Assembly (NCBI GenBank): GCA_022482815.1
Contig: JAKVOM010000001.1
Span: forward strand, 1-64,000
From: Acidaminococcus sp.
GTDB taxonomy: Bacteria; Bacillota; Negativicutes; Acidaminococcales; Acidaminococcaceae
Direction: 5' to 3'
Length of the DNA stretch: 64,000 nucleotides
The translations under genes and the position numbers were made by a program. Positions 27,298 to 41,155 of the stretch are shown here, one piece after another. Each line of letters opens with the position of its first letter. Position 1 is the stretch's first letter. The notes beneath the pieces were generated by a model. That model had not been told where the DNA came from. It did no database searches and worked only from the letters and a program-made list of their open reading frames with translations.

Positions 27298-29565
27298 TCA
27301 ATGCTCCTTCAACCAGGGGTTGATGGCATATTTGGGCAGTGGTGGCCTGCCCGTGCCTGAGTATTTCTGCGGTTTTTGCATGATGTACCCGTAATCCTCA
27401 AGGAAGTCGAGAACCGGCTGGATGCTGTCCACGGTCTTAAACCTCCGGCACATGCGCATAGCTTCCCGCCTGTCAAAGGCGGTGAGACGCCGCTCCCTGA
27501 TTTTCTGGAGGATCAGGTTCCCGTTCTCGTACATGTCATTTTCCGGCAGGACGGAATAGGCGGCCTGTGCATGGTTAAGATAATATTTTCCAAGACGTAT
27601 CGCATCTGACATGGTTTTCCCGGTGACGGACAAGGCATCCTGCACCATAAGAAAGTCATGGCTTTGGTAAACGGAAGCCCTGCAAAGGAGTCCGGATATG
27701 CGCAGTACATTGCCGACAAGCTTTCCGGCCCAGTCAGCCATTTCTGCATAGTCGTTTGTGAGCTTCGGCTCCAGCCAGTTTGCGAATGCTTCAAGCTCCC
27801 TGTCCGCTTCCGGAGAGAGTGTGATGGTCTGCGGTTTTTCCGGATACTCATCTTCCAGGAGATTCACCACAAGCTGTTCATAGCCGCGGTAGGTTTCGTC
27901 CGTCACAGCTTTACTCCGATACTTTCTTTTTCCCACTGACGAGACTGGCATGCTGTACAGGAACCTCGCCGTAAGACCGCGTCCCCGGAATGTGGTGTTG
28001 CTCAATACGGATGAGACCACGTTCGGCTGTGCCATCAGGAGGATCGTCAGTGCCGGATCCATAATGCTTTCACTCTCGCGCCCGATACGGTCCACTCGGA
28101 TCGTATCTCCGGAGTACCCCTTCAGCATGACATCGATATTGACCGTCTTCGTATAGATACCGGAGAGGGTGTCGAAGATACCTCCTTCACTGGAAATGAG
28201 AGCTGCATGGCCGTGATTTTTGGCAATGACGGCTACCAGTTTTTCAGTGGTGATGTCATCCACATAAAGCTGCATGGGGCTTACTTCCTCAAAGTCAGCG
28301 GCCTCCTGTGCGATACGTTTCAGTTCTTCCGGTTTGGCATTTCCCTTGGCGACCTTGTCTTCGACTGCCTTCTGCCTGCGTTCCAGGACACGTTTCTGCA
28401 TCTTCCCAGCCTCCACCGCAGCGGCATTCTGTTTGTTGTACTCGGTCTCGTAATCGTTGACCGGCTGCAACATGAGATGCAGGACGGATGACTTTCTTTC
28501 GGACGGCGGGGCAATTACAATCACATAAGTGTTGAGCGGCTCCACCCAGCCAGGCTTTCCCTGGATCCGGTATTTCTTCTGCAGACAGGTCGAAAGTACG
28601 GAAAGTACGATGCTCCCCGCCATATCCACAGGTGTCTGTGTGCTTTCCGCTACGGCCCTCACATAATCAGCAATCGGCTGCGGCAGCGCATCGACCGGGA
28701 ATGGAGCCATTGTGAAACGTGATAATGGCAGTGGCTCGCTCCATCCGGGATAGGGATTGTTGAATTCCTGCGGAGGCACATACCCTTCACTGCCTTCAAT
28801 CTTGTCCCTGTAAAATTTCAGGGCACTTTTCCAGATGGTTCCCAGTTCCTTCTCCGAAAGAGGGGGGTCGCAATTCTCGGCCCTCTGCAGGTAGGCTTCA
28901 TAGGCTTTGTCCGTATCCCCATACCGTTTCAGCACCCGGCCGGCAAAGTGGGACATGGCATTGTTGCGGCTGCCTTCCGGGATGGAGCTTCCTGTATAGA
29001 AGGGAGCTTCCGTCCGGCTGGGTTCCGCAGGTTCCAGTCCGGCCAGGAATTCCATAATGGTGCGCTCCCCTTCCTGCCAGAAGATTTCTTCCGGCACCAC
29101 TTCCGTGCCATACAGGAACCGGGCCGCATCCAGGGCCTGGCCGTCAAAGAAGGGAAACTGCTCCCGGATTCCCTGTTTCAGTGCCGTATAGGCTTTTTCG
29201 TCCTGCACTTCCGGAATGGGAAAATACGCATGGAACCGGGGCCGGGCTTTCCGGCCTTCCTTGGCTTTCCCGCTATTCCGGGACGGGACGATGGCCACAG
29301 CCACGTTTGGCAGCATGGCAAGGAGCTTTTCTCCCGTCACCCACTCCTTCGGATTTTCCGTATGGTCGTTGTCGCAGTCCATCACCGCCACATCGGAAGC
29401 CAGGAAGTTATCCCGGCTCCGGTAGTTGTCCTTATAGGCCGCACAAACGTGGTCGAAAGCAGCAGCCGTCCCCAGTTCCCTGCTGCTTGTGATGACTGCT
29501 TTATTAGGATATATGGCATTTCGTTCGTTGCCGGTACAGTCAGCCGTGTAAATCGTAAATCTCAT
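27298..29565 (-). CDS. primase/DUF3987 helicase-like replication protein
   Basis: 755 residues, GGAGGCAGAAAG upstream, ATGA overlap with the DUF4406 gene. Residues 1-170 resemble an archaeo-eukaryotic primase-like domain (VAVMDCDNDHTENPKEWVTG, RKARPRFHAYFPI), followed by a PriCT-like helix bundle (NNAMSHFAGRVLKRYGDTDK, ELGTIWKSALKFY). Residues about 290-720 match DUF3987 (TQTPVDMAGSIVLSVLSTCL, APPSERKSS as a P-loop-like motif, MDPALTILLMAQPNVV, FRGRGLTARFLY). It is the main replication protein of the phage. Confidence 0.88.
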   Translation of the reverse strand: MRFTIYTADCTGNERNAIYPNKAVITSSRELGTAAAFDHVCAAYKDNYRSRDNFLASDVAVMDCDNDHTENPKEWVTGEKLLAMLPNVAVAIVPSRNSGKAKEGRKARPRFHAYFPIPEVQDEKAYTALKQGIREQFPFFDGQALDAARFLYGTEVVPEEIFWQEGERTIMEFLAGLEPAEPSRTEAPFYTGSSIPEGSRNNAMSHFAGRVLKRYGDTDKAYEAYLQRAENCDPPLSEKELGTIWKSALKFYRDKIEGSEGYVPPQEFNNPYPGWSEPLPLSRFTMAPFPVDALPQPIADYVRAVAESTQTPVDMAGSIVLSVLSTCLQKKYRIQGKPGWVEPLNTYVIVIAPPSERKSSVLHLMLQPVNDYETEYNKQNAAAVEAGKMQKRVLERRQKAVEDKVAKGNAKPEELKRIAQEAADFEEVSPMQLYVDDITTEKLVAVIAKNHGHAALISSEGGIFDTLSGIYTKTVNIDVMLKGYSGDTIRVDRIGRESESIMDPALTILLMAQPNVVSSVLSNTTFRGRGLTARFLYSMPVSSVGKRKYRSKAVTDETYRGYEQLVVNLLEDEYPEKPQTITLSPEADRELEAFANWLEPKLTNDYAEMADWAGKLVGNVLRISGLLCRASVYQSHDFLMVQDALSVTGKTMSDAIRLGKYYLNHAQAAYSVLPENDMYENGNLILQKIRERRLTAFDRREAMRMCRRFKTVDSIQPVLDFLEDYGYIMQKPQKYSGTGRPPLPKYAINPWLKEH

Positions 29566-29981
29566 CTTTCTGCCTCCTCGAGGGTTTCGTTAAAGAATCT
29601 CAGCCGATAGTTCTTCCATCTGGCCCGCCGAATCTCCGCATCCATGCCAGGAGATATGGTATCCCCGAACACCCACACTTCCCGGCAAAGGCCCATCAGG
29701 ATGTTGCCGAAATGGAGCCCTGCCTCCCGTTCCTTTGGATTCCGGTCATCCAGGAACTGGGGAAAGAGGAGATGCGGAGCCAAGGGCAGGTACCCTTCTT
29801 CAAAGGCAAAGCGGCAGTACCGCCTTGCTGCCAGGATATTTTTATCCGTTGCCCCGGAATACGGGGAACAGATATATACGAGAGGCCGGTAAGCCCGGAG
29901 TGCCTTCCGCTGGGCTTCGACAGCACTGAGGGCTCTCTGCGGAGTCGGATCCGGATAGTGTTCCTGGTTATGCATGTCCAT
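29562..29981 (-). CDS. DUF4406 / nucleoside deoxyribosyltransferase-like protein
   Basis: 139 residues from ATG 29979-29981 with AAAGGAG ten bases upstream; a GTG three codons earlier is possible. The pattern PLVYICSPYSGATDKNILAA, EGYLPLAPHLLFPQFLDD and VWVFGDTISPGMDAEIRRA matches the DUF4406 branch of the nucleoside 2-deoxyribosyltransferase fold. Phage members are thought to act in nucleotide metabolism. Overlaps the antirepressor stop by 14 bp. Confidence 0.85.
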   Translation of the reverse strand: MDMHNQEHYPDPTPQRALSAVEAQRKALRAYRPLVYICSPYSGATDKNILAARRYCRFAFEEGYLPLAPHLLFPQFLDDRNPKEREAGLHFGNILMGLCREVWVFGDTISPGMDAEIRRARWKNYRLRFFNETLEEAER

Positions 29982-30765
29982 AAATGCCACACTCCTTTTC
30001 GATCAGGGGATAGTTTCCTTCCTCAGTCATCAGCCGATAGATGAACAGCCGACCTTTCTGTGTCCAATAGGTATGGACACGATTATGCAGGACGCCGTTT
30101 CCGTCCGGGATATTGAAGGTCTTTGTCGAGGTGTATCCCATGGGAGCATAAGCCTGGTAAAGCAGCCAAATATTGCCCTGTTTGTACTGGATCCCGTGTT
30201 CATGGAGCCACTGGTTCATGCGGTTTGCAGACCATCCATAGTCCTTGGCAATGGTCGATGTGCTCACCAGCTCCCTACACTGCAGGACCAGATCGAAGTA
30301 CGTAGCCTTTGGCCGGAGCTCCGCAAGCTGCTGCTGTTGAGCGGCATTTATCTGTGCCAGTTCCCTTGCCCTATTCCGTTCCTCTTTAAGCTTTGTAAGA
30401 GCTGCAATCGCAAGATCCGGATTATCCAGGATGGCTTCTGTAGCATAAATGCCTGTTTTTCGGATGGCTGGAAGGACTTCATGCGTCACCCAACGCTTAA
30501 ATGCCCTGGCTTCCGGTTTCCGGCTTCTGAGAATCAGCGTGTAGAGACCTGCTTCATTGACCACACGTTTTTCGGGATTCCCCGGAATACCCTCGGTTAA
30601 AACGAGGGTATTCTTCTCATCGTCATCCAGTCTCGAGAGTGCATCGCTCGGATTGCCGATATCCAGGATGCGGCATATGTCCGCAGCTACGAACCAGGAT
30701 TCCCCGTTTACAACAGCCGTACGCACGTTCATTCCGTTATAAATAAAATTTTTCATATCAGTCAT
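29968..30765 (-). CDS. phage antirepressor, BRO-N plus KilAC domains
   Basis: 265 residues from ATG 30763-30765 with AGGGAGGTCAGC upstream. Residues 1-110 are a BRO N-terminal domain (ADICRILDIGNPSDALSRLD, EAGLYTLILRSRKPEARAFK, RWVTHEVLPAIRKTG). Residues 125-255 are the KilA C-terminal/ANT domain (STIAKDYGWSANRMNQWLHE, THTYW-like end). The product likely frees the phage from its repressor during induction, but no CI-like repressor gene is in the window. Confidence 0.92.
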   Translation of the reverse strand: MTDMKNFIYNGMNVRTAVVNGESWFVAADICRILDIGNPSDALSRLDDDEKNTLVLTEGIPGNPEKRVVNEAGLYTLILRSRKPEARAFKRWVTHEVLPAIRKTGIYATEAILDNPDLAIAALTKLKEERNRARELAQINAAQQQQLAELRPKATYFDLVLQCRELVSTSTIAKDYGWSANRMNQWLHEHGIQYKQGNIWLLYQAYAPMGYTSTKTFNIPDGNGVLHNRVHTYWTQKGRLFIYRLMTEEGNYPLIEKECGIYGHA

Positions 30766-30826: not shown

Positions 30827-31441
30827 TCAAATCTGACGGTTTCCAAAAACTTCCTGCAACTTTTTTCTTGCCCGCTTCAGCTTCTGGGTGATGTTGTTTT
30901 CATTGGCACCGATTCTGATGGAGTATCCCCGGATGGATTCTTCGTTGAGATAGACAGAGATTACCGCATCTTCCCACTCCGGCTTGTTCACCAGCACCGT
31001 ATGGATTTCCTGACGGACTTTTTCTTCGCTAGCCTTGCGATCCCGTTCCGTTGCATCTCGGCTGACAGTATTCATATCTGGCATGGAGATTCCGTTCCGG
31101 CTGCACCCGCTTCCAGCAACAGTGCAGGTGTACGTATCAGGGACTGCCTCGATGGGATTCATCAAAGCCTCGTCCTTTTCATTCCGTTCCTGGTAGTCCG
31201 GGCACTCTGTTCTTCTCCGATGTTCCCTGCGCCAGTCGTTATAGAGGGGCTTGTTGAATTCTTCGTCCATGATTTCCTGGGCGCTGCGCCGGGTAACTTC
31301 TTCCCCTTCCTTTGCCGCCTGTTTTCTCAGTTCGTAATCCCTCTCGATCATGATCTGGCAGTCACCTTCAGGGACTTCCACTACCGTGACCACTGGTGCT
31401 TTGGATTCATCCAATCCGTAGTATTTGACTGTGATTTTCAC
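30827..31441 (-). CDS. sigma-70-like RNA polymerase sigma factor of mobile-element type
   Basis: 204 residues from GTG 31439-31441; upstream codons of the longer frame form a hairpin leader and are not coding. The C-terminal part DAVISVYLNEESIRGYSIRI and ANENNITQKLKRARKKLQEV is a sigma region 4-type HTH; the central part is charged and variable, with a C-G-C patch near 115. Such proteins occur near one end of conjugative elements and phages and drive early or accessory genes. Its ribosome site AAAGGA lies inside a long stem-loop ending exactly at the start codon. Confidence 0.75.
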   Translation of the reverse strand: MKITVKYYGLDESKAPVVTVVEVPEGDCQIMIERDYELRKQAAKEGEEVTRRSAQEIMDEEFNKPLYNDWRREHRRRTECPDYQERNEKDEALMNPIEAVPDTYTCTVAGSGCSRNGISMPDMNTVSRDATERDRKASEEKVRQEIHTVLVNKPEWEDAVISVYLNEESIRGYSIRIGANENNITQKLKRARKKLQEVFGNRQI

Positions 31442-31488
31442 TTTTGGCGTCCTTTCCGTCCGTGCCAGAAGACGAAAGGATGCCAAAA
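31442..31488 (-). promoter_or_regulatory. stem-loop sequestering the ribosome binding site of the sigma-like gene
   Basis: Arms 31442-31460 (minus: GACGGAAAGGACGCCAAAA) and 31471-31488 (minus: TTTTGGCATCCTTTCGTC) pair over about 17 bp with one mismatch and one bulge. The 3' arm contains the Shine-Dalgarno AAAGGA and abuts the GTG start, so the folded leader should block translation unless the helix is opened. Confidence 0.75.
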
Positions 31489-31517
31489 AAGACCTGCGGG
31501 GAAAGTCCCCACAGGTC
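31485..31517 (-). terminator. terminator/attenuator in the sigma-like gene leader
   Basis: Arms 31506-31517 and 31491-31502 (GACCTGTGGGGA / TCCCCGCAGGTC on the minus strand) form a 12-bp stem with one mismatch, followed by six T. It stands 44 bp before the start of the sigma-like gene and just before the RBS hairpin, so transcription of the early region may depend on antitermination. Confidence 0.75.
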
Positions 31518-31845
31518 CCAGAGTGCCAAAATGGCGCACGGGAACAAACGGTGGGGGCATTTCCAGTCCTGCCCACCGCATCACTGCGGTGATTCAGAAC
31601 TGTCTATGCATCCCATCGTCCTCATGCGCATCTCGGACAACAGAGATTTTTTTGTTATGGGTGCCTGAGCACTCATATGGAAGCAGGACTGCCTGCTGCC
31701 GTATCAATGTTCAGACTATCCGTCCAGCTTTTGGAATACCCGCTTGCTGGTCGGTCATAATGAAATCGAACTTACTGATTGCAGATTATATTTCTGCATT
31801 TGCGGTATTCAGATTCACAGCCACACAGAAAATTCCACACATGCA

Positions 31846-32004: not shown

Positions 32005-33396
32005 ATGCCCTCACAAAACAACTTCCACGTTCCCCATTTATGCGGTGGTATCCTGTTCAATCTTTTACTGGAAACAAGAAAAACACGCGGAAAAATCCGT
32101 GACAGGGCACATGGCGGAACAGACGGTCTTTCTGATTTGGATGTATATATAGGACTTGTAAATGTTGTAGCTGGCAATGACTGGAAAGATGTTGACGGGA
32201 CAACAAAAAATAAATGTGTATCTAACTATAAAAGGTGCGTGGACAGCACAGGTTCATATGTTCCTTTTACTGATGAGGTTTTTAGGAAAGCCTTCGATTC
32301 GGAATACAATAAAAAAAGCCCTGCCCTCCTTGAAAGGATGGCAAGGTTCATAGAACAGTATTTGAGTCTTGAAAAGTGCAAGTGGCTTGGCAAAGCATTG
32401 ATTGAAATCATGCAAAAAGACCCTTCAATCAATGATGATGCCGAAATTGCTGTAGGCTTTGGACAAAATATTTCTGTAAAAAAACTGCATGAGGCAAAGA
32501 ACATTCACTTTTTGCCTTTTTTCCTAAGCGTACTGCATTACGTAATCGATAATTGCCCTGACTGCGAATCCGGGCGGTCCACCTTTGAAACCTGGTATTG
32601 CCAAGTTGGTCCGAAAGCGCCATGGAAACCCAAACATGATGTACTCAGTAAACTCGGTGGCACCATCGGCGATATGGAAGTGTCAGTGAATCTGGAAGTT
32701 CAGAAAGCCATTACGATAAAAGATGCAGAACATAGAAATTCCGAGAGTACATCTTCTGCAGATGAATGCTCATCGGAAAAGCCAGATAAAAATAATGATA
32801 TTCTTTCACCCGAATCCCCGCTTTCCAACCGTGATACCACTCTTTTACCCCGGCTGGCGAAGGGATTCAACAAAATATTGAAGTTTGCCAAAGACACGGA
32901 CCTCAGTATAGAACGTATGCCTTGCGAAATTCTGAATACCTTTGATACCCTGTATAATGAATGGAAGGATCAAGACACGGACTTTAAAGATCCGGAACTG
33001 AATAAATTGAAATATGACATTCTAAATACATTGTATGGGTATATCACCTTCTGGGAAACTCATCTTTGGTTCAACGATGATTCTGATTGCTTTGTCCACC
33101 TAAAAAATACGTACAAAGATTCCTGGAAAAAAGAAGGAGAACTTCGTCAGCAGGCCATGAAGGACAGAGAAGCTTTCACCCGTCTGCATGAAAGGCTTTG
33201 TCGGTATATCATAGACTTTGATATCGATCTAAACAAAACTGAACCAGTTGAAGCCAAGGTCGTAGAAGAAACGCCGCCTCTGGAAAATAATCAAGGCGGC
33301 AGCCGGACTACAATTATCGAGCACCAGACCAATATCGGCCACAGTGTGTCAAAGACATATAACATAAAGGACAGCACTGTCACATTTAATGATTAA
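32005..33396 (+). CDS. component A of candidate three-part conflict system (unknown family)
   Basis: 463 residues, CAGGAGGTACTGTT upstream. I recall similar uncharacterised gut-Firmicute proteins but no function. Residues about 8-55 contain PHLCGGILFNLLLETRKTRG and GGTDGLSDLDVYIGLVNVV; residues 80-215 are helical. Residues 235-275 form a Ser/Glu/Pro-rich linker, residues 275-430 a second helical domain. Residues ~441-460 carry QTNIGHSVSKTYNIKDSTV, a motif that recurs at the start of protein B. No catalytic motif was found. Operon context suggests a sensor or effector working with an ABC-type ATPase. Confidence 0.72.
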   Translation: MPSQNNFHVPHLCGGILFNLLLETRKTRGKIRDRAHGGTDGLSDLDVYIGLVNVVAGNDWKDVDGTTKNKCVSNYKRCVDSTGSYVPFTDEVFRKAFDSEYNKKSPALLERMARFIEQYLSLEKCKWLGKALIEIMQKDPSINDDAEIAVGFGQNISVKKLHEAKNIHFLPFFLSVLHYVIDNCPDCESGRSTFETWYCQVGPKAPWKPKHDVLSKLGGTIGDMEVSVNLEVQKAITIKDAEHRNSESTSSADECSSEKPDKNNDILSPESPLSNRDTTLLPRLAKGFNKILKFAKDTDLSIERMPCEILNTFDTLYNEWKDQDTDFKDPELNKLKYDILNTLYGYITFWETHLWFNDDSDCFVHLKNTYKDSWKKEGELRQQAMKDREAFTRLHERLCRYIIDFDIDLNKTEPVEAKVVEETPPLENNQGGSRTTIIEHQTNIGHSVSKTYNIKDSTVTFND

Positions 33397-33409
33397 GGAG
33401 AAACAATGT

Positions 33410-34060
33410 ATGAAGAATTTAACAGCTCCTGGCCCACATCAAGTGCGGCCGATAGTCCAAACGAATATAGGGAATCAGGTCATAAAGACATACAACATTC
33501 AGGACAGCAACGTTAACATCTATAATACGTGTCCACCTAACCAAGGGAATCCATATAGTGCAGCCCAAATGATTGCACTCAATAATTTCAGCAAAGAATA
33601 TTATCAGCTCCTCGTTACCTGTGAAACAGATGTCTTTGAAAATAATAACGCCACATTTCCCTTAGACCGTGCGTTAAGTCAAAGGTATGTTCCGGAAGAA
33701 ATATTAACCCGTTGTTCGTCTTTGTCAGAAGAAGGGATTGCCGAACTGAAGACCTTTCCGGCCATTGTCTGTATGGAAAACACAGGGTTCAATGGAATTA
33801 CAGATCCTAATCAAACCGCGATATTCGCATATATAACACGAGTAAAAATGGAAGGCTACCAAGTTAGAGTGGCGTTCCAGCCCATTGCACCATTCCATCA
33901 AAAAATACTTTGTGAACAGAAATATGCTATTTATTTCGACTTGAACATGAGTTGTGCCATTACGGATTTGAATCGCACTGCCTGGTCTATCCATAAAGTG
34001 AATCTTTTTGAAGCTTTCAATGAGTCTGGACTGGGATATCTCCCGCACCCTTCTATTTAA
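33410..34060 (+). CDS. component B of candidate three-part conflict system (unknown family)
   Basis: 216 residues from ATG 33410, which has AAGGAG nine bases upstream; an ATG at 33389 overlaps gene A but has no site. After about 17 residues comes QTNIGNQVIKTYNIQDSNV, almost the same as the C-terminal motif of protein A. The remainder is a mixed alpha/beta domain (AQMIALNNFSKEYYQLLVTC, ITRVKMEGYQVRVAFQPIAP, QKYAIYFDLN) of no family known to me. The shared motif suggests that A and B dock on one another or on the same partner through an intertwined beta element. Likely the middle or adaptor component. Confidence 0.7.
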   Translation: MKNLTAPGPHQVRPIVQTNIGNQVIKTYNIQDSNVNIYNTCPPNQGNPYSAAQMIALNNFSKEYYQLLVTCETDVFENNNATFPLDRALSQRYVPEEILTRCSSLSEEGIAELKTFPAIVCMENTGFNGITDPNQTAIFAYITRVKMEGYQVRVAFQPIAPFHQKILCEQKYAIYFDLNMSCAITDLNRTAWSIHKVNLFEAFNESGLGYLPHPSI

Positions 34061-34072
34061 AGGTGACTGTCT

Positions 34073-36424
34073 ATGAACAGAAAATATCCAAGCGAAATAA
34101 CAGAAATTAGAGTGGATGATGCAACCTTTAAAAATACAGGCACTGTCATCACCCCCACCTATATCAACTACTTTTTCGGAAACAACGGCACGGGAAAATC
34201 CACTATTGCCAAAGCAATCCAATCTGGAACTGGCATCAAGTATGCTCCAGGAAGATCTGCCACAGACTACCAGGTATTGGTTTTCAACCAAGAATATATC
34301 AATCGAAATATGCAGAACTTCCATAACCTTCCAGGTGTTTTTACGATGGCCGAGGAGAATGCAGAAATCCAGGACAAGATTGATGAGGCTGCAGAGCAGC
34401 TGGCTGATGCACAGGAAAAAGTATCAGATGCCACGGATGAAAAAGAAAAATTAATTAAAATAAAAAAAGAAATCTGTACAAAGTTCTACGATGAAATCTG
34501 GCGGCGGACTGGAAAACTGCGTAAAACATTTCCAGGCACACAGGCTGGATACCTCAAATCAAAGGCTAATTTAGCCGACAAAGTAAAACTGTGTTCACCC
34601 AGCGAATATGATTTGGATGATCTTAAACGGATGTATGATTCTGCCTACTCTTCTACAGCACAGAGCTATCCTCGCTTTAATACAATTAGCGATACTACTG
34701 TGCTTGACAGCATTGAAGGCAGCGAAATTCTATCTGTTGCAATTGTCAATTCCTCAGATACCCAACTTGCAAAATTTTGGAAGAAAATCGAGGCTTCCGA
34801 ATGGGTGCGTCAAGGCCATTCTGCATATCATGGCAAAACCGATGGGAAATGTCCTTTTTGTTCACAGCCTTTGCCTTCAGAATTTGAAAAATTCTTGACA
34901 GACAGTTTTGATGACCAATACGAGAAGAACCTTACAAAGCTATCAGCATTCCTTGAAGATTACAGAAACACAGCCAACGCTTTATTTATGCCTTTGTCAA
35001 AACTTCCAGAACCGCTATATCCTGTCCTTGATGAAAAACCCTACAAGGATAAACTGGAAGCCCTAAGAGGTATTATTTCTACAAACATAAACCGGATAAA
35101 AGAAAAAATAGCCGAACCTTCTAAATCTATTAAATTGGATAATACCGCACCACTACTACAAGAACTCCAAAAAATGATTACAGATTATAATAAACTAATT
35201 TCTGATAACAACATGGTAGTTGCTGATGCCCCTAAGAAAAAAGAAGAATGCAAAGAAAAAGTCTTTTCTTTCATGTCCTTCATAACAAATGAAACAATCA
35301 AGGCTTTCAACAAAAGTATCTCTGACATTAATAAACAGCTAAACAAGCAACAGGAAATCATTGATACTCAGACAGAGCAAGGTGCGGATATCAGAGAAGA
35401 AATCCGTGTTCTAAACAGCCAGACAAAAGAAACTGAGTCCGCAATGAACAACATAAACCTTATGCTGAAAGATGCCGGATTCCAGGGATTTAAAGTCTGT
35501 CCCCACTGGGAAGAAAGAAGAAATCCGGATGGTTCTGTAAAACGAGTAATTCCTTCGCCGATTCGTAACTATGCTGTAGTCCGTACCGATACCGAAACAG
35601 GAGAAGAAGAAATTGCACATGACCTTAGTGAAGGAGAAAAGAATTTCATCGCCTTCCTGTATTTCCAGCAAACTGTATTCGGGAGCACTGACGCAGACAG
35701 CGATTCTCTGCAAAAAATAGTTGTTATTGATGACCCCGTTTCCAGCATGGACAGTGGTACGCTTTTTATTGTAAGTGCTCAAATCCGTAAGATGATCCAT
35801 ATTTGCCGAAACAATGTTGACAACCGGCAACCGGCAGCAGATGGAAATTTCATCAAGCAGATTTTCATTCTTACCCATAATGCTTATTTCCATCGAGAGG
35901 TAAGTTACCTTTATGCCCGACAGTGGAACTTTGTATCTTTTTACCTGGTCCGCAAAATCAACAATAAATCTTCCGTCCAGTTGTTTGAAAAGCAGAACCC
36001 CGACTGCCCTACCAAAATGATGAATGTCAATCCCGTCAAGAACTCCTACGCTGCCCTTTGGGAATCTTATAAGGAAGTCCGGAGCGGTATCCCGTTAAAG
36101 AGCACCATCCGCAGGATTTTAGAATATTATTTCCTGCAATTATGCGGCTATGAAGGAGACGATTTGAGAAAACGTATCCTGGAAGACCATAAGAACAACT
36201 TTCTATATGACGAAAATGGCCATGAAACTCCAGAACGATACGAGATGGCTAAGGTCCTTCTGTCTTACATCATCTCCGATAATTCCAGCGTGAATGATGG
36301 AATCAACTACACGGACGATTTCCTCGATGAACAGCTTTACAGGGATACATTTAAAATGATTTTCAAATACATAAATCAGGAACAGCACTTCAATATGATG
36401 ATGGGTAACGAACAAGGAGAATAA
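34073..36424 (+). CDS. AAA_13/ABC-type ATPase of the candidate conflict system (RloC/PrrC-like motor)
   Basis: 783 residues. Walker A FFGNNGTGKSTIAKAI near residue 35, then VFNQEYINRNMQNFHNLPGV, coiled coil ~95-130, a CPFC pair at about 260 (as in zinc-hook proteins), a second coiled coil ~300-470, ABC signature DLSEGEKNFIAFLYF at ~517, Walker B KIVVIDDPVSSMDSG at ~545 and switch His in FILTHNAYFHREV at ~600. The C-terminal 170 residues are helical with no recognised HEPN anticodon-nuclease signature. All ATPase motifs are intact. AAA_13 motors act in several anti-phage systems. Confidence 0.85.
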   Translation: MNRKYPSEITEIRVDDATFKNTGTVITPTYINYFFGNNGTGKSTIAKAIQSGTGIKYAPGRSATDYQVLVFNQEYINRNMQNFHNLPGVFTMAEENAEIQDKIDEAAEQLADAQEKVSDATDEKEKLIKIKKEICTKFYDEIWRRTGKLRKTFPGTQAGYLKSKANLADKVKLCSPSEYDLDDLKRMYDSAYSSTAQSYPRFNTISDTTVLDSIEGSEILSVAIVNSSDTQLAKFWKKIEASEWVRQGHSAYHGKTDGKCPFCSQPLPSEFEKFLTDSFDDQYEKNLTKLSAFLEDYRNTANALFMPLSKLPEPLYPVLDEKPYKDKLEALRGIISTNINRIKEKIAEPSKSIKLDNTAPLLQELQKMITDYNKLISDNNMVVADAPKKKEECKEKVFSFMSFITNETIKAFNKSISDINKQLNKQQEIIDTQTEQGADIREEIRVLNSQTKETESAMNNINLMLKDAGFQGFKVCPHWEERRNPDGSVKRVIPSPIRNYAVVRTDTETGEEEIAHDLSEGEKNFIAFLYFQQTVFGSTDADSDSLQKIVVIDDPVSSMDSGTLFIVSAQIRKMIHICRNNVDNRQPAADGNFIKQIFILTHNAYFHREVSYLYARQWNFVSFYLVRKINNKSSVQLFEKQNPDCPTKMMNVNPVKNSYAALWESYKEVRSGIPLKSTIRRILEYYFLQLCGYEGDDLRKRILEDHKNNFLYDENGHETPERYEMAKVLLSYIISDNSSVNDGINYTDDFLDEQLYRDTFKMIFKYINQEQHFNMMMGNEQGE

Positions 36425-36850: not shown

Positions 36851-37309
36851 TCAAGCCGTTTTTACTGTTTGGGGTGCGGAAAATTTTTTTATCAATACGG
36901 AAAGGCTTATTTCAATGTAAATCATTTTCACTTTTCCAAGATATGTCTCCTGAAGAAGTTTCAAAGCATCCAGGTTATCCCCTTCAATATAGATATTTTC
37001 CGAATCAATACCGCCGGGAGTTCCATCTTTTCCCACCGATTTTTCTCGATTGAAGCGAAGCGTTTTAGCAATGGGCTGGTTTGCAAGAAGGATAGCTTTT
37101 TTCTTATCAGGCCACGTAAATTGATATCTTTCCTGTCCTTCATCCACTACCTGAGCATTAATCTCCTGCATCAGTACGGCCTTATTTATGGCCCTTACGA
37201 CATTACCATTATCATCAATCGTTTCAGTAACAGCATCTGGAAATAGCTCTGCCAATTTTTTGAAATTTTCTTTTGCCAAATCAGGCGTATGCATCTTAAG
37301 CTTTTCCAT
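36851..37309 (-). pseudogene. type III-like DNA methyltransferase (Mod), N-terminal remnant
   Basis: ATG 37307-37309 with GGAGGAAATT upstream. Residues 1-130 are a normal Mod N-terminus (MHTPDLAKENFKKLAELFPD, KKKAILLANQPIAKTLRFN, NIYIEGDNLDALKLLQETY, LGKVKMIYI). The catalytic DPPY motif should follow MIYID, but the sequence diverges after ATTGA at about 36.912 kb and soon stops. So the SAM/target half and the following restriction gene are deleted. The gene cannot make an active methylase. Confidence 0.88.
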
Positions 37310-37925
37310 TTTTAATTTCCTCCAGTTCCTTCTTATAGCCTTTCAGTCTTGTATAAAGTTCAAATTTTTTCTTTGGCTGTCGCTCTTTCCACGTAAGAGC
37401 TTCCATTTTTTTTATTTGTTCGTTCAGCACTTCAATCTGTTCCTGGCGTTTTAGTCTTTCTGCAATATTCATACTATCCGGAACTGCTTCTTCATTTATC
37501 AGAGCAACCTGCTCGACGAAGTGGTTCCAAATATCATCCAGTGAAAACCCTTCTACAGCTATTTTTACTTCTGATTCTTGTTTCCAATTTGTCTGATATA
37601 GTTTTCCCTGATACAGCGCACACTGTCTTTCGTCGTTATAAGAAAGAATAAATAACAGTTTATGCGGATTTTGTCTTGCAATGATTTCAAGCGTTTTTTT
37701 GTCATAGTTGTTCTTTTTCAGTTCAATCAGCATGACAATAATCTCTTTGATGTCAGACTCACGCTCAAGGTTTAAGTTTTCCTTAGTCAAAATGTATTCA
37801 ACATATAATCGACTGATATCAGAAACAAATTCATCCTTCAACTTCACTGGTAAAGACAAATGCTTGTAAAATGCCTCCTTCGGCATTTTCCTGTGAACAT
37901 AGGTAGTTTTGGGAAACTCAATCAT
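37296..37925 (-). CDS. DUF4391 domain protein
   Basis: 209 residues from ATG 37923-37925, in an ATGA overlap with the helicase gene. The start IEFPKTTYVHRKMPKEAFYK, central ARQNPHKLLFILSYNDERQC and C-terminal ERLKRQEQIEVLNEQIKKME match DUF4391, which is regularly found between a PLD/SNF2 helicase and a type III-like methyltransferase. Its role is unknown. Overlaps the Mod remnant by 14 bp. Confidence 0.88.
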   Translation of the reverse strand: MIEFPKTTYVHRKMPKEAFYKHLSLPVKLKDEFVSDISRLYVEYILTKENLNLERESDIKEIIVMLIELKKNNYDKKTLEIIARQNPHKLLFILSYNDERQCALYQGKLYQTNWKQESEVKIAVEGFSLDDIWNHFVEQVALINEEAVPDSMNIAERLKRQEQIEVLNEQIKKMEALTWKERQPKKKFELYTRLKGYKKELEEIKNGKA

Positions 37926-40900
37926 GACGTCACCACCATAAAACAAATCAGCTCAAAATCGCTAAGTCCTGAAATTTTTTCTGTTTGAAAAGTAGTCATT
38001 CCAGGTGAAAAGAAACTGTCAATATCTTCTTCGTTTTTCACATCGATAATTGACTCAATAGCATCTTCAAGGAGCCCTGAAATTTTGCGCATATCTTTGC
38101 CGTTTTTCGTCTTACGATTGAACAACCGGCAGATTGTTTCATCGGGAGCATCCTTCCCACGTGCCAAAACACGCATCACATCCAGTGTATCTTTTACCTG
38201 TAAATGATTTGTGATAATTTCTCCGTCCATTCCCACATAGACGAGATAAAAGGGATGGAGACGATTTTTGTGATCGATATTAATATTTTCATTGACATTT
38301 TTCAGGACAAAAATGACGCCTGGCTTTTCACCCCGAACTACCGCATGGATACCGAAAGGAACATGGTCAATATCCGGATGTGTCTTCATATACGCCAGCA
38401 AATCCATCCGAAAATCATTTAAACCGAGATCTACAATAGAAACTCCGCTGTTCATATCCTCCAAATCGACAACTTCTTCTTGAAGTTTTTTCAGTTGAGC
38501 CTTCCTGTATTCAAGGTCTCCTTTTTCTTCGGGATTAATCAGGTTATCATCACCTGTTGAGGTCATGACCGAAATTTTCATTCGTGTTTCAACGCGCGCT
38601 TTAAGATTGATATACTCATCAAGATCCAAATCAGGCCAGAAGTTAACGAGTTGAATCACACTGTTTTTACTTCCGATACGGTCAATACGGCCGAACCGCT
38701 GAATGATGCGGACAGGATTCCAATGAATATCATAATTGATGCAGTAGTCACAATCCTGCAGGTTTTGCCCTTCAGAAATACAGTCTGTTGCAATCAAAAT
38801 GTCAATATCATCATGATCATCCGGATAAATAAAATCACGCTCTTTTGAAATCGGAGAAAAAGAGGCGAGAACGTGATTCATCTCTGCTCTAAAGCCAGGG
38901 ATGGTAGTTTTCCCGTCTACAGATCCGGTAATTAATGCCGTATTCAACCCGAGGGTATCCTTAACTACTTTACTGATATTTTCATAAAGATACTCAGCAG
39001 TGTCAGCGAAAGCAGTAAAAATCAAGATCTTCTTGTTACTTGGATTAATGGGATTCACTTCTTTTTCCCTTATCACGCCAAGAAGCTGCGTCAGCTTGTA
39101 ATCATATTCCGGCGTGATGCCTTCTACCATGGAAATCAAACGTTTAAGGTTAGCAATATCCTCCTCTATATCTCGTTGCCATGAGATGAAATCCATATCA
39201 TTAAGATCAATCTGTATCTTTTTGCCTACTGCAAATAGCTCCGTGTTCTGATCATCGTCATCAAACTCTTCGCTTACGCTTGAAAGGTCCGTCATTTCAT
39301 CCAGACGAACATTTTTCCCTTGCCTAAACTGTTCAATGGTCTGATTCGTTTCGTCAAGATACTGATAAACCCTTTTAATTGTCAGGAGAAATGAGTGAAC
39401 GGAGCTTTCCATACGCTTGAGCAGGTTAATGCTCATCAGCCGCTGAATCCCTCGTTCACGGCCACGCTTCATGTTTTCTGATTCATCATGATCAAGATAT
39501 TTATGGAGCTTGCTAGGATGTATGAACTCGGTTGGTGTATAAATAGTCAGGTGCAGCAAGTTTAAAATATTGTAAATATCCTTGTAGTTTATTGCACTTT
39601 CTAAGGTCGTGAGTTTAGGTCTGAGTGAAATGGGTTTATTGCGCTTCGGAAAGGTTCCGATATCCGTTGTGTCGTAATATTTCTGAATATGTTTTCTGGA
39701 TCTTGCAATAGTAACGCTATCCAGCACTTCAAAGAAATCGTAATCAAGCTGAGACAAGAGATTTTGGGTAGTTCTCTCCTCTTCCGGCAGTTTAGCCCAG
39801 GCGTTATAGACTTTCTGTGCTTGCCGAAAAATCGTATCTATATCAGATTTAGTATTAAGCTTCTCGTTAAAAGAAGCCGCATCTCCTTCATAAGCCAATG
39901 CCAGTTGATTCCGCAAGTCGAAGAATCGATTATTTACCGGTGTCGCAGAAAGCATCAGCACCTTCGTCTTAACACCCGGTTTAATCACACGGTTCATAAG
40001 ACGCATATACCGGTTTTCTTTTTCACCGCCATGCGTATTTGTTCCGTTTCCATTCCGGAAATTATGAGATTCATCAATAACTACAAGGTCATAATTTCCC
40101 CAATTTATACGATCAATAGGAAGACCGATTACCGTTTTTCCTCTATTCCTGGATAAATCCGTGTGATATAAGACATCATAGCGAAAACGATCCCCGGCAA
40201 GAGAGTTATTTACCAAATTTCCGCGGTAAGTCATCCAATTTTCGGAGAGTTTCTTAGGGCAAAGTACGAGTACATTCTTGTTGCGGCCCTCATAGTATTT
40301 AATAACGGCCAGGGCAGTAAAAGTCTTGCCAAGGCCGACGCTGTCAGCAAGGATGCACCCATTATACTGTTCCAGTTTATTGATGATTCCCAGCGCAGCA
40401 TCTTTCTGGAAATTGTAAAGCTTATTCCAAATAATGCTGTCTTTGAAGCCTGTTGCCTCGTTAGGAAGAACATCTTCAGAGATATCCTCCAAAAACTCAC
40501 TGAAAATGTTATAGAGCGTCATGAAATAGATTAATTCTGGTGAATTTTCTTGATATACATTTGAAATCATACTGATGACTTCATTGGTGACATCAGTCAT
40601 CTTATCCTTATCATTCCAGATTTCATCAAAAGTATTCAAAAACTCTTTGCTGGCAGGATTCTCCATCCTCGTTACCATGTTGGTCATGTTGTTTCCACGT
40701 TCGCATCCAAGATCAATCGTAGTAAACGAGTTCATAGGCATGTAGGTATAGAGCTCATCTTGATCATCCACCAGCAAAAAGTTATTCATACCTTCCCGTG
40801 TATTGTTTGTTTTAAACTTGGCTTTTACCTTTATCCATTCAGCACATTCACGTGCAACAGCTTTTTGTTTCAGTTCGTTGCGCAAACGGATTTCGAATTG

Positions 40901-41155
40901 TGTGCCATATAGACTTTTTTCACGCTGCAGTCGGGAAATATAAAATTCTCTTCTTTCTTTTGGAGTTTTCTCAGCAACAAATGTAGGAGACGTAAAAATG
41001 AAACGGAATTCATCACAGGATTCCAGAGCATCCTTTAATGCTTGATAGGCGTAAATAGAAAAGCAGGCAGCGGCAATAGAAATTTTGCTGCCGGATTTGA
41101 TTTTTTTTAAAAGGTCATCTCGCACGACATTTGTAGTATTATTAAAGACTTCCAT
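37922..41155 (-). CDS. PLD-like/SNF2 helicase of a restriction-like defence island
   Basis: 1077 residues, GGAGTG upstream of ATG 41153-41155. Residues ~15-150 resemble a phospholipase-D-type domain (GSKISIAAACFSIYAYQALK) but I do not see a clear HKD. Helicase motifs are intact: ILADSVGLGKTFTAL (Walker A, ~270), DLVVIDESHNFRN (~355), KVLMLSATPVNNR, KILIFTAFADTAEYL, LIATDCISEGQNLQDCDYCI and RIIQRFGRIDRIGSKN. It likely translocates on DNA for a nuclease or methylase complex. Since Mod and Res are lost, the helicase may be orphaned or act alone. Confidence 0.9.
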   Translation of the reverse strand: MEVFNNTTNVVRDDLLKKIKSGSKISIAAACFSIYAYQALKDALESCDEFRFIFTSPTFVAEKTPKERREFYISRLQREKSLYGTQFEIRLRNELKQKAVARECAEWIKVKAKFKTNNTREGMNNFLLVDDQDELYTYMPMNSFTTIDLGCERGNNMTNMVTRMENPASKEFLNTFDEIWNDKDKMTDVTNEVISMISNVYQENSPELIYFMTLYNIFSEFLEDISEDVLPNEATGFKDSIIWNKLYNFQKDAALGIINKLEQYNGCILADSVGLGKTFTALAVIKYYEGRNKNVLVLCPKKLSENWMTYRGNLVNNSLAGDRFRYDVLYHTDLSRNRGKTVIGLPIDRINWGNYDLVVIDESHNFRNGNGTNTHGGEKENRYMRLMNRVIKPGVKTKVLMLSATPVNNRFFDLRNQLALAYEGDAASFNEKLNTKSDIDTIFRQAQKVYNAWAKLPEEERTTQNLLSQLDYDFFEVLDSVTIARSRKHIQKYYDTTDIGTFPKRNKPISLRPKLTTLESAINYKDIYNILNLLHLTIYTPTEFIHPSKLHKYLDHDESENMKRGRERGIQRLMSINLLKRMESSVHSFLLTIKRVYQYLDETNQTIEQFRQGKNVRLDEMTDLSSVSEEFDDDDQNTELFAVGKKIQIDLNDMDFISWQRDIEEDIANLKRLISMVEGITPEYDYKLTQLLGVIREKEVNPINPSNKKILIFTAFADTAEYLYENISKVVKDTLGLNTALITGSVDGKTTIPGFRAEMNHVLASFSPISKERDFIYPDDHDDIDILIATDCISEGQNLQDCDYCINYDIHWNPVRIIQRFGRIDRIGSKNSVIQLVNFWPDLDLDEYINLKARVETRMKISVMTSTGDDNLINPEEKGDLEYRKAQLKKLQEEVVDLEDMNSGVSIVDLGLNDFRMDLLAYMKTHPDIDHVPFGIHAVVRGEKPGVIFVLKNVNENINIDHKNRLHPFYLVYVGMDGEIITNHLQVKDTLDVMRVLARGKDAPDETICRLFNRKTKNGKDMRKISGLLEDAIESIIDVKNEEDIDSFFSPGMTTFQTEKISGLSDFELICFMVVTS

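Follow-up and report, generated by a model that had tools for sequence, protein, structure and literature searches.

A conserved leader RNA with attenuator anatomy at the head of a prophage early operon in Acidaminococcus

What governs entry into the early operon of an Acidaminococcus prophage? The window analyzed here is a 64-kb stretch, the first of a single-contig 3.06-Mb genome, and the prophage early operon begins on its minus strand at position 31441 (Table 1). Besides its first gene and a phage antirepressor, the operon encodes a DUF7768 nucleoside-deoxyribosyltransferase-like protein, named after the antirepressor and before the DUF3987 helicase-primase. A preliminary description of the 75 nt ahead of the first gene had suggested that an RNA switch or antitermination operates where the phage early region begins. 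This proposal is now supported by a covarying RNA core, an antiterminator, a competing helix termed P0, and the operon content; switching itself, the transcript start, and the signal remain inferences.

Both hairpins on which the proposal rested, a 12-bp terminator with six T and a second hairpin ending at the GTG start, are present on the minus strand. The 3' arm of the second hairpin carries GGAAAGGA, with six of the six letters of AAAGGA paired in the fold, and stops one base ahead of the GTG (31441-31439). The spacing between the two, previously given as a few bases, is actually zero, as the 5' arm of the second hairpin starts with the U run of the terminator. Folding of 31410-31540 gave z = -5.16, and none of 200 dinucleotide shuffles was as good. 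A consensus terminator scan of the window listed no terminator at 31517-31491, a miss that we attribute tentatively to a G-T pairing rule that lengthens the stem into the U run. In the promoter scan, the candidate promoter of the window stayed at chance level.

Table 1. Leader and early-operon features in the window.
Feature	Positions	Strand	Remarks
Whole leader RNA (core, D segment, terminator, ribosome-site hairpin)	31442-31648	-	Recurs in 76 aligned leaders
Hairpin P1	31618-31638	-	GUCC/GGAC stem; palindromic loop AUGCGCAU at 31631-31624
P2, 5' strand	31606-31617	-	Both-side changes in 9/9 P2 pairs
Hairpin P3, apical part of P2	31564-31602	-	Both-side changes in 11/11 pairs
Core 3' strand	31548-31564	-	Pairs in P2, or with terminator arm/loop as putative antiterminator
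Segment D, 3' partner of P0	31523-31533	-	Pairs with 31638-31629 (5' half of P1) in the window fold
Terminator arm/loop part of antiterminator	31500-31512	-	Can pair with 31564-31551, 12 pairs
Intrinsic terminator hairpin	31491-31517	-	GACCTGTGGGGA-CTT-TCCCCGCAGGTC, 12 pairs, one G-U; U6 at 31490-31485
Ribosome-site hairpin	31442-31490	-	Pairs AAAGGA (31455-31450), reaches GTG
Leader-controlled gene	30827-31441	-	204-aa protein, GTG start, C-terminal domain like sigma-70 region 4, phrog_11138 family
Phage antirepressor (Bro-N + KilAC), operon gene 2	29968-30765	-
DUF3987/PriCT helicase-primase-like, downstream early gene	27298-29565	-

The first gene had been called sigma-like, a label that holds for the C-terminal domain of its product but not for the rest of the protein. 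The genome is close to Acidaminococcus, with values over the protein of 72% for A. provencensis and 74% for A. fermentans. The 204-aa protein scores under the Pfam and NCBIfam cut-offs for sigma region 4, and the same libraries gave no family match to sigma-70 region 2. Among 73 downstream proteins, Sigma70_r4_2 matches 61 at E <= 0.05, mostly weakly to judge by members scanned singly, with one relative, at locus L048, above the cut-off in the family scan; phrog_11138 is matched by 68 (E <= 0.001). In the AlphaFold model, whose overall pTM is low (0.36), the C-terminus forms a four-helix domain with block pLDDT mostly 80-89, the N-terminal half is a small mixed fold, and the middle is poor and of low confidence. 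In Foldseek, the C-terminal domain overlays sigma region 4 (5fgm, TMt 0.83, E 0.085); the top matches include sigma factors and sigma region 4 domains with E from 0.05, none reaching 0.001 or below. The leader RNA can change its controlled gene: in L166 (1700-2344), a Rha regulator follows it in place of the sigma-like gene.

When the upstream DNA of relatives was compared, conservation was found to reach ~130 nt beyond the two hairpins, and the 75 nt first singled out proved to be the 3' end of a conserved leader of ~205 nt (31648-31442). The hairpins of the preliminary description are real, but the putative switch is longer than stated. A first DNA pattern scan of viral contigs, with TGCGCAT fixed in the pattern, returned 39 stretches, and a second pattern that left the P1 loop free returned 53; a protein-alignment search kept 80 of 89 loci. 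A covariance model built from 58 leaders was then run on 45 loci lacking the DNA patterns and matched 35 of them (E up to 0.19); to the extent that the listed coordinates allow, these matches lie ahead of the gene and on its strand. Four of the ten unmatched loci (L064, L075, L077, L118) have at most 107 bases upstream. Carriers are prophages or phages of Acidaminococcus, Anaerosphaera, Erysipelotrichaceae, Erysipelothrix, Streptococcus, and Ruminococcus, among them Erysipelothrix phage phi1605, Streptococcus phage Javan630, and Ruminococcus phage NatCom_38182. The association with a gene is also demonstrated by this comparison: the leaders mostly precede a sigma-region-4-like gene, which starts 92-119 nt past the core strand in the listed ORFs (L133, at 69, is a mis-called start).

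The leader was matched at E <= 0.01 in 7 of 398 genomes of the phylum, its own included; there, the covariance model (CM R1) matches at 31516-31655, with no second copy at E <= 10. By blastn, the window leader matched none of 50,697 phage records, the L060 leader matched three (its own included), and the L095 leader four. Carriage by plasmids was rejected, the L060 leader having no blastn match among 72,556 plasmid records. Rfam at the gathering threshold has no match at the leader in the window, only two group II introns elsewhere, and a search of eight relatives with their flanks at E <= 1 found nothing at the leader and two stray matches outside it. The intron matches (RF02005 and RF00029, 52385-53015, minus strand) lie ~300 bases apart, a gap too short for an intervening intron protein. 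No description of the leader was found in the open-licence literature, most of it judged by title and the start of the abstract, and absence is not proven. A large human-microbiome catalogue of RNA candidates (PMC8040213) could include it in its supplement.

The core of the leader comprises the helices P1, P2, and P3, which are demonstrated by comparison through compensatory changes on both sides in 22 of 24 pairs. In the P1 stem, which occurs as GUCC/GGAC, GCCU/AGGC, or GUCU/AGAC, two of the four pairs have changed on both sides and the remaining two are invariant; P2 varies among UGCAU/AUGCA, UACAU/AUGUA, and UAUC/GAUA. The covariation score is 0.536, compared with 0.204 for shuffles and at most 0.100 for slid alignments, and the 24 model pairs are formed in 92.8% of cells versus 74.4% when shuffled (74 leaders, 72 distinct). 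This alignment was fitted to the covariance model and so leans towards it; A3 and A7 were fitted to the model's structure. A MAFFT alignment of 58 leaders gave 94.2% of pairs formed versus 87.5% shuffled, and both sides had changed in 11 pairs, against 7.7 for shuffled alignments.

The core 3' strand connects this structure with the terminator. In the window, GGAAAUG.CCCCAC can pair with GUGGGG.C.UUUCC through 12 pairs, and most families show the same complementarity of this strand to their own terminator, in its loop and upper 5' arm, the letters being GAAGAUG x CAUCUUC in the gut-phage majority, GAGAUAC x GUAUCUC in L069 and L008, and UAGAAGUACC x GGUACUUCUA in L085. For 11 leaders less than 60% alike, the cognate duplex averages -13.7 kcal/mol versus -10.1 kcal/mol when partners are permuted. 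No permutation in 20000 was as low as the cognate set at 35, 22, or 11 leaders, and eight were at nine leaders less than 55% alike; this test and the corresponding one for P0 treat divergent leaders as exchangeable. Taken singly, the evidence is thinner: in 18 of 36 representatives the duplex is stronger than with 95% of shuffled terminators, only 5 of 36 core strands have their cognate terminator as top-ranked partner, and the pairing is weak in L117 (-5.8 kcal/mol) and L129 (-8.9 kcal/mol). As a set, and comparatively, the leaders meet the definition of attenuator anatomy, namely a terminator together with a mutually exclusive antiterminator strand.

A second competing pairing, similarly demonstrated by comparison, is P0, in which the 5' half of P1 joins segment D just ahead of the terminator. 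P0 is cognate-specific across families (GUCCUA x UAGGAC; GCCUGA x UCAGGC; AUAAGGC x GCCUUAU in L147; GCCUGAUUAG x CUAAUCAGGC in L138), with a cognate value of -9.8 versus -7.4 permuted at 22 leaders. Permutations as low numbered 0 of 20000 at both 36 and 22 leaders, 3 at 11, and 17 at 9; in the control, which set the other half of P1 against D, they numbered 2500, 1785, 9865, and 9133 of 20000 (36, 22, 11, and 9 leaders). P0 and P1 share one strand and are mutually exclusive; P0 is nested relative to P2 and the terminator, and it crosses the antiterminator. A pseudoknot in cis of the P1 loop with a downstream UGCGCC was rejected, as this word is near constant while the loop changes, and it gave way to P0, which draws on the P1 stem and 5' half.

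Predicted energies place the two folds of the window close together at one point of transcription. With the 3' end at 31506-31500, 0.3 kcal/mol separates the fold with P1 and the antiterminator from the fold with P0; completion of the terminator puts the P0 (OFF) fold ahead by ~21 kcal/mol. This near balance is not general, and the ON fold requires an unidentified helper, because at the decision point, with D held unpaired, 33 of 35 relatives favor OFF (median 9.7 kcal/mol). The margin under the same condition is 12.0 kcal/mol in L011, which is closely related to the window.

How general are the two hairpins themselves? An automatic rule for terminators (a hairpin of -8 kcal/mol or lower with at least 4 U of 8) was passed by 59 of 73 distinct downstream regions and missed 14; five of the misses (L003, L006, L025, L028, L044) are hairpins drawn into their own U run, and with these artefacts put right by eye the count becomes 64. 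A convincing terminator is absent in nine (L052, L138, L144, L166, and the group L063/L117/L123/L129/L140). The phages of this last group keep P1 and the ribosome-site hairpin without a convincing terminator, and their control may have shifted to translation alone. The ribosome site, which had been described as hidden, is indeed so in the window, and AAAGGA is fully paired also in the near-identical L002 and in the L095 group; many other relatives leave part of it in a bulge, and L167 leaves it open. Only 9 of 34 representatives pair the site better than their control, the preceding stretch shuffled (at most 5% as high), so a hidden ribosome site is not a general feature of the relatives; a protein operator is possible.

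Several observations concern the DNA around the leader. A dyad, GGACATNNCATGTCC, lies ~65-71 bases before the leader in six of 57 scanned (L024, L028, L032, L051, L135, and, one letter off, L144) and is a possible operator of the early promoter. Ten leaders (L007, L014, L026, L035, L037, L042, L046, L047, L053, L054) are preceded by a near-identical gene end (by eye, ...KSVAGSALSQT..KK) and then an inverted repeat without a U run. In the window, three opposite-strand genes immediately upstream of the leader (32005-36424, plus strand) include one for an AAA_13 ATPase matching the PADLOC candidate PDC-S06 (E 5e-199); the remaining two proteins are without family. This spot may be a cargo site for defense genes, because Streptococcus phage Javan630 (L061) has an opposite-strand ATPase cassette at the corresponding place. 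Further on, 36851-41155 (minus strand) looks like a broken or incomplete defense operon, in which a 152-aa piece, whose match to a type III methyltransferase profile is confined to the first fifth, lies near a 1077-aa HKD+Snf2 helicase.

On this evidence the leader is a real, conserved cis-regulatory phage RNA, and comparison lends good support to an attenuator mechanism that is experimentally unproven. We consider it probable that the leader attenuates transcription by adopting one of two states, with a translational gate as a second step; there are no transcript, start-site, termination, or expression data. In the OFF state, which we infer to be the default, P0 would close a long irregular hairpin enclosing P2 and P3, the core 3' strand would be held in P2, and the terminator would form, leaving the early operon untranscribed. 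In the ON state, P1 would close on itself and exclude P0, and the core 3' strand would leave P2 and invade the arm and loop of the terminator, allowing RNA polymerase to read through. The U run and ribosome site of the read-through RNA would then form the second hairpin, which would need to be opened or bound before the sigma-like protein could be made. Switching of the folds in the cell, the role of P1 as trigger point, and a limit set on translation by the second hairpin are likewise inferences.

Which helper would tip the attenuator toward ON? A serious possibility, although one we cannot call established even in outline, is that the core is an aptamer or protein site, one fold being stabilized by a small molecule or by an RNA-binding protein of phage or host, possibly the sigma-like protein itself, with the bulged ribosome-site hairpin as a second operator. 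The near-invariance of the unpaired core letters fits such a factor, as do the near-constant GGAAAGGA, the AAA bulge in many hairpins, and a terminator and antiterminator anatomy resembling that of riboswitches and attenuators. However, the genes downstream encode phage regulators and point to no metabolite, a candidate binding protein is lacking, and a factor alone leaves the palindromic loop of P1 unexplained.

This loop suggests another answer. The 76 leaders contain 24 distinct P1 loops, and comparison finds a perfect palindrome of at least 6 nt in every one, built on eight central hexamers (AGCGCT, GCGCGC, GGCGCC, GTCGAC, TAGCTA, TGCGCA, TGGCCA, TTGCAA); in 2000 rounds of shuffling, 3.6 of the 24 loops had one on average and never more than 11. 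In cis, the letters at the center of such a palindrome cannot pair among themselves, and they stay palindromic even where P0 does not use them (L095, L117). In 10 of the 24 loops the next pair outward is G-T (G-U), which is permitted in RNA and not in a DNA dyad. The loops are read most simply as sites where two RNAs pair loop to loop; a dimeric DNA-binding protein co-evolving with its site is possible, and would explain the G-U neighbors and the RNA pairings less well. The mark of a kissing loop, self-complementarity kept while the letters change, is met, and formation of a dimer is inferred from it. Two leaders kissing through their P1 loops would keep P1 closed, block P0, and favor the antiterminator, with read-through only when leader transcripts are plentiful, whether from phage copies or from a derepressed promoter. 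Because the genome holds a single copy of the motif, the partner would be another transcript. We regard this gating by dimers as tentative. No dimer has been shown, concentrations in the cell are perhaps too low, and some loops are weak as bare duplexes (UUGCAA -5.9, UAGCUA -6.7 kcal/mol); in addition, related loops are not independent, and the first collection scan fixed TGCGCAT, the other loops having been gathered without that constraint. Rather unlikely, taken as a whole, is the extended version, in which the attenuator gauges its own abundance, dimers free the antiterminator, and the early genes are released once leader copies suffice, the RNA thereby counting phage genomes or promoter activity. 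Boldest of all, and not excluded, is that the trigger is self-dimerization, through which the leader would sense the copy number of its transcript or of the phage.

Less probable still is that nothing switches at all, and that an insulator terminator set against read-through into the early operon is combined with a constitutive translation brake, the core merely stabilizing the transcript. The strong preference for OFF once the terminator is complete, and at the decision point in nearly all relatives, is what such an arrangement would give, but the conserved, cognate-specific P0 and antiterminator would then be purposeless. The same long-range pairings count against a DNA-level element, an operator dyad or replication origin transcribed by chance, which we hold to be very improbable: P1 is an inverted repeat in DNA as well, and some relatives have the upstream dyad GGACATNNCATGTCC, but the central hexamer varies while its self-complementarity persists, and the spacing to the terminator and start codon is tight. 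Attenuation by a ribosome translating a leader peptide, scarcely credible, was rejected because the short open reading frame is not conserved: the window has a 40-aa frame that starts at an ATG, with a ribosome site judged plausible by eye, and ends in a stop overlapping the GTG, but frames from the same ATG span 4 to at least 100 aa in 52 rows, with 18 of the 52 at 4-6 aa.

The two-state attenuator resembles several known systems without coinciding with any of them. In pT181/pAMbeta1-type plasmid rep attenuators, where the partner is an antisense RNA, a preemptor strand likewise stays in an upstream fold or blocks the terminator, and loop-loop contacts decide; in contrast, the loop of the phage leader is self-complementary, and no antisense RNA is known (promoter scan only). 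Retroviral dimer-initiation hairpins, which serve viral genome dimerization, similarly present a stem and a palindromic 6-nt loop flanked by unpaired letters, whereas the phage case is a short bacterial leader with no dimer shown. Terminator riboswitches share the conserved core, the competing terminator and antiterminator strands, and the ribosome-site hairpin, but the leader is without ligand, metabolic gene, or Rfam match, and its gene context suggests no ligand. The put RNA of HK022 is reported to be another phage early-region RNA that acts on termination in cis (PMC9378689), but it suppresses pausing and termination along the early genes, whereas the leader has one adjacent conserved terminator with its own antiterminator strand. 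Tn916 is reported to be a mobile element of Gram-positive bacteria that curbs premature expression via a terminator (PMC11658703).

The leader looks like an undescribed gene switch common to temperate phages of gut bacteria, and it adds a candidate RNA class outside Rfam to the temperate phages of Bacillota. It sits at the gate of an operon for an antirepressor and replication, a point at which the phage may choose lysis or lysogeny. Should the palindromic loop work by dimerization, the leader would be a natural, RNA-only concentration sensor, and if the dimer reading is true, multiplicity sensing by a phage would become testable in vitro with a leader of ~205 nt.
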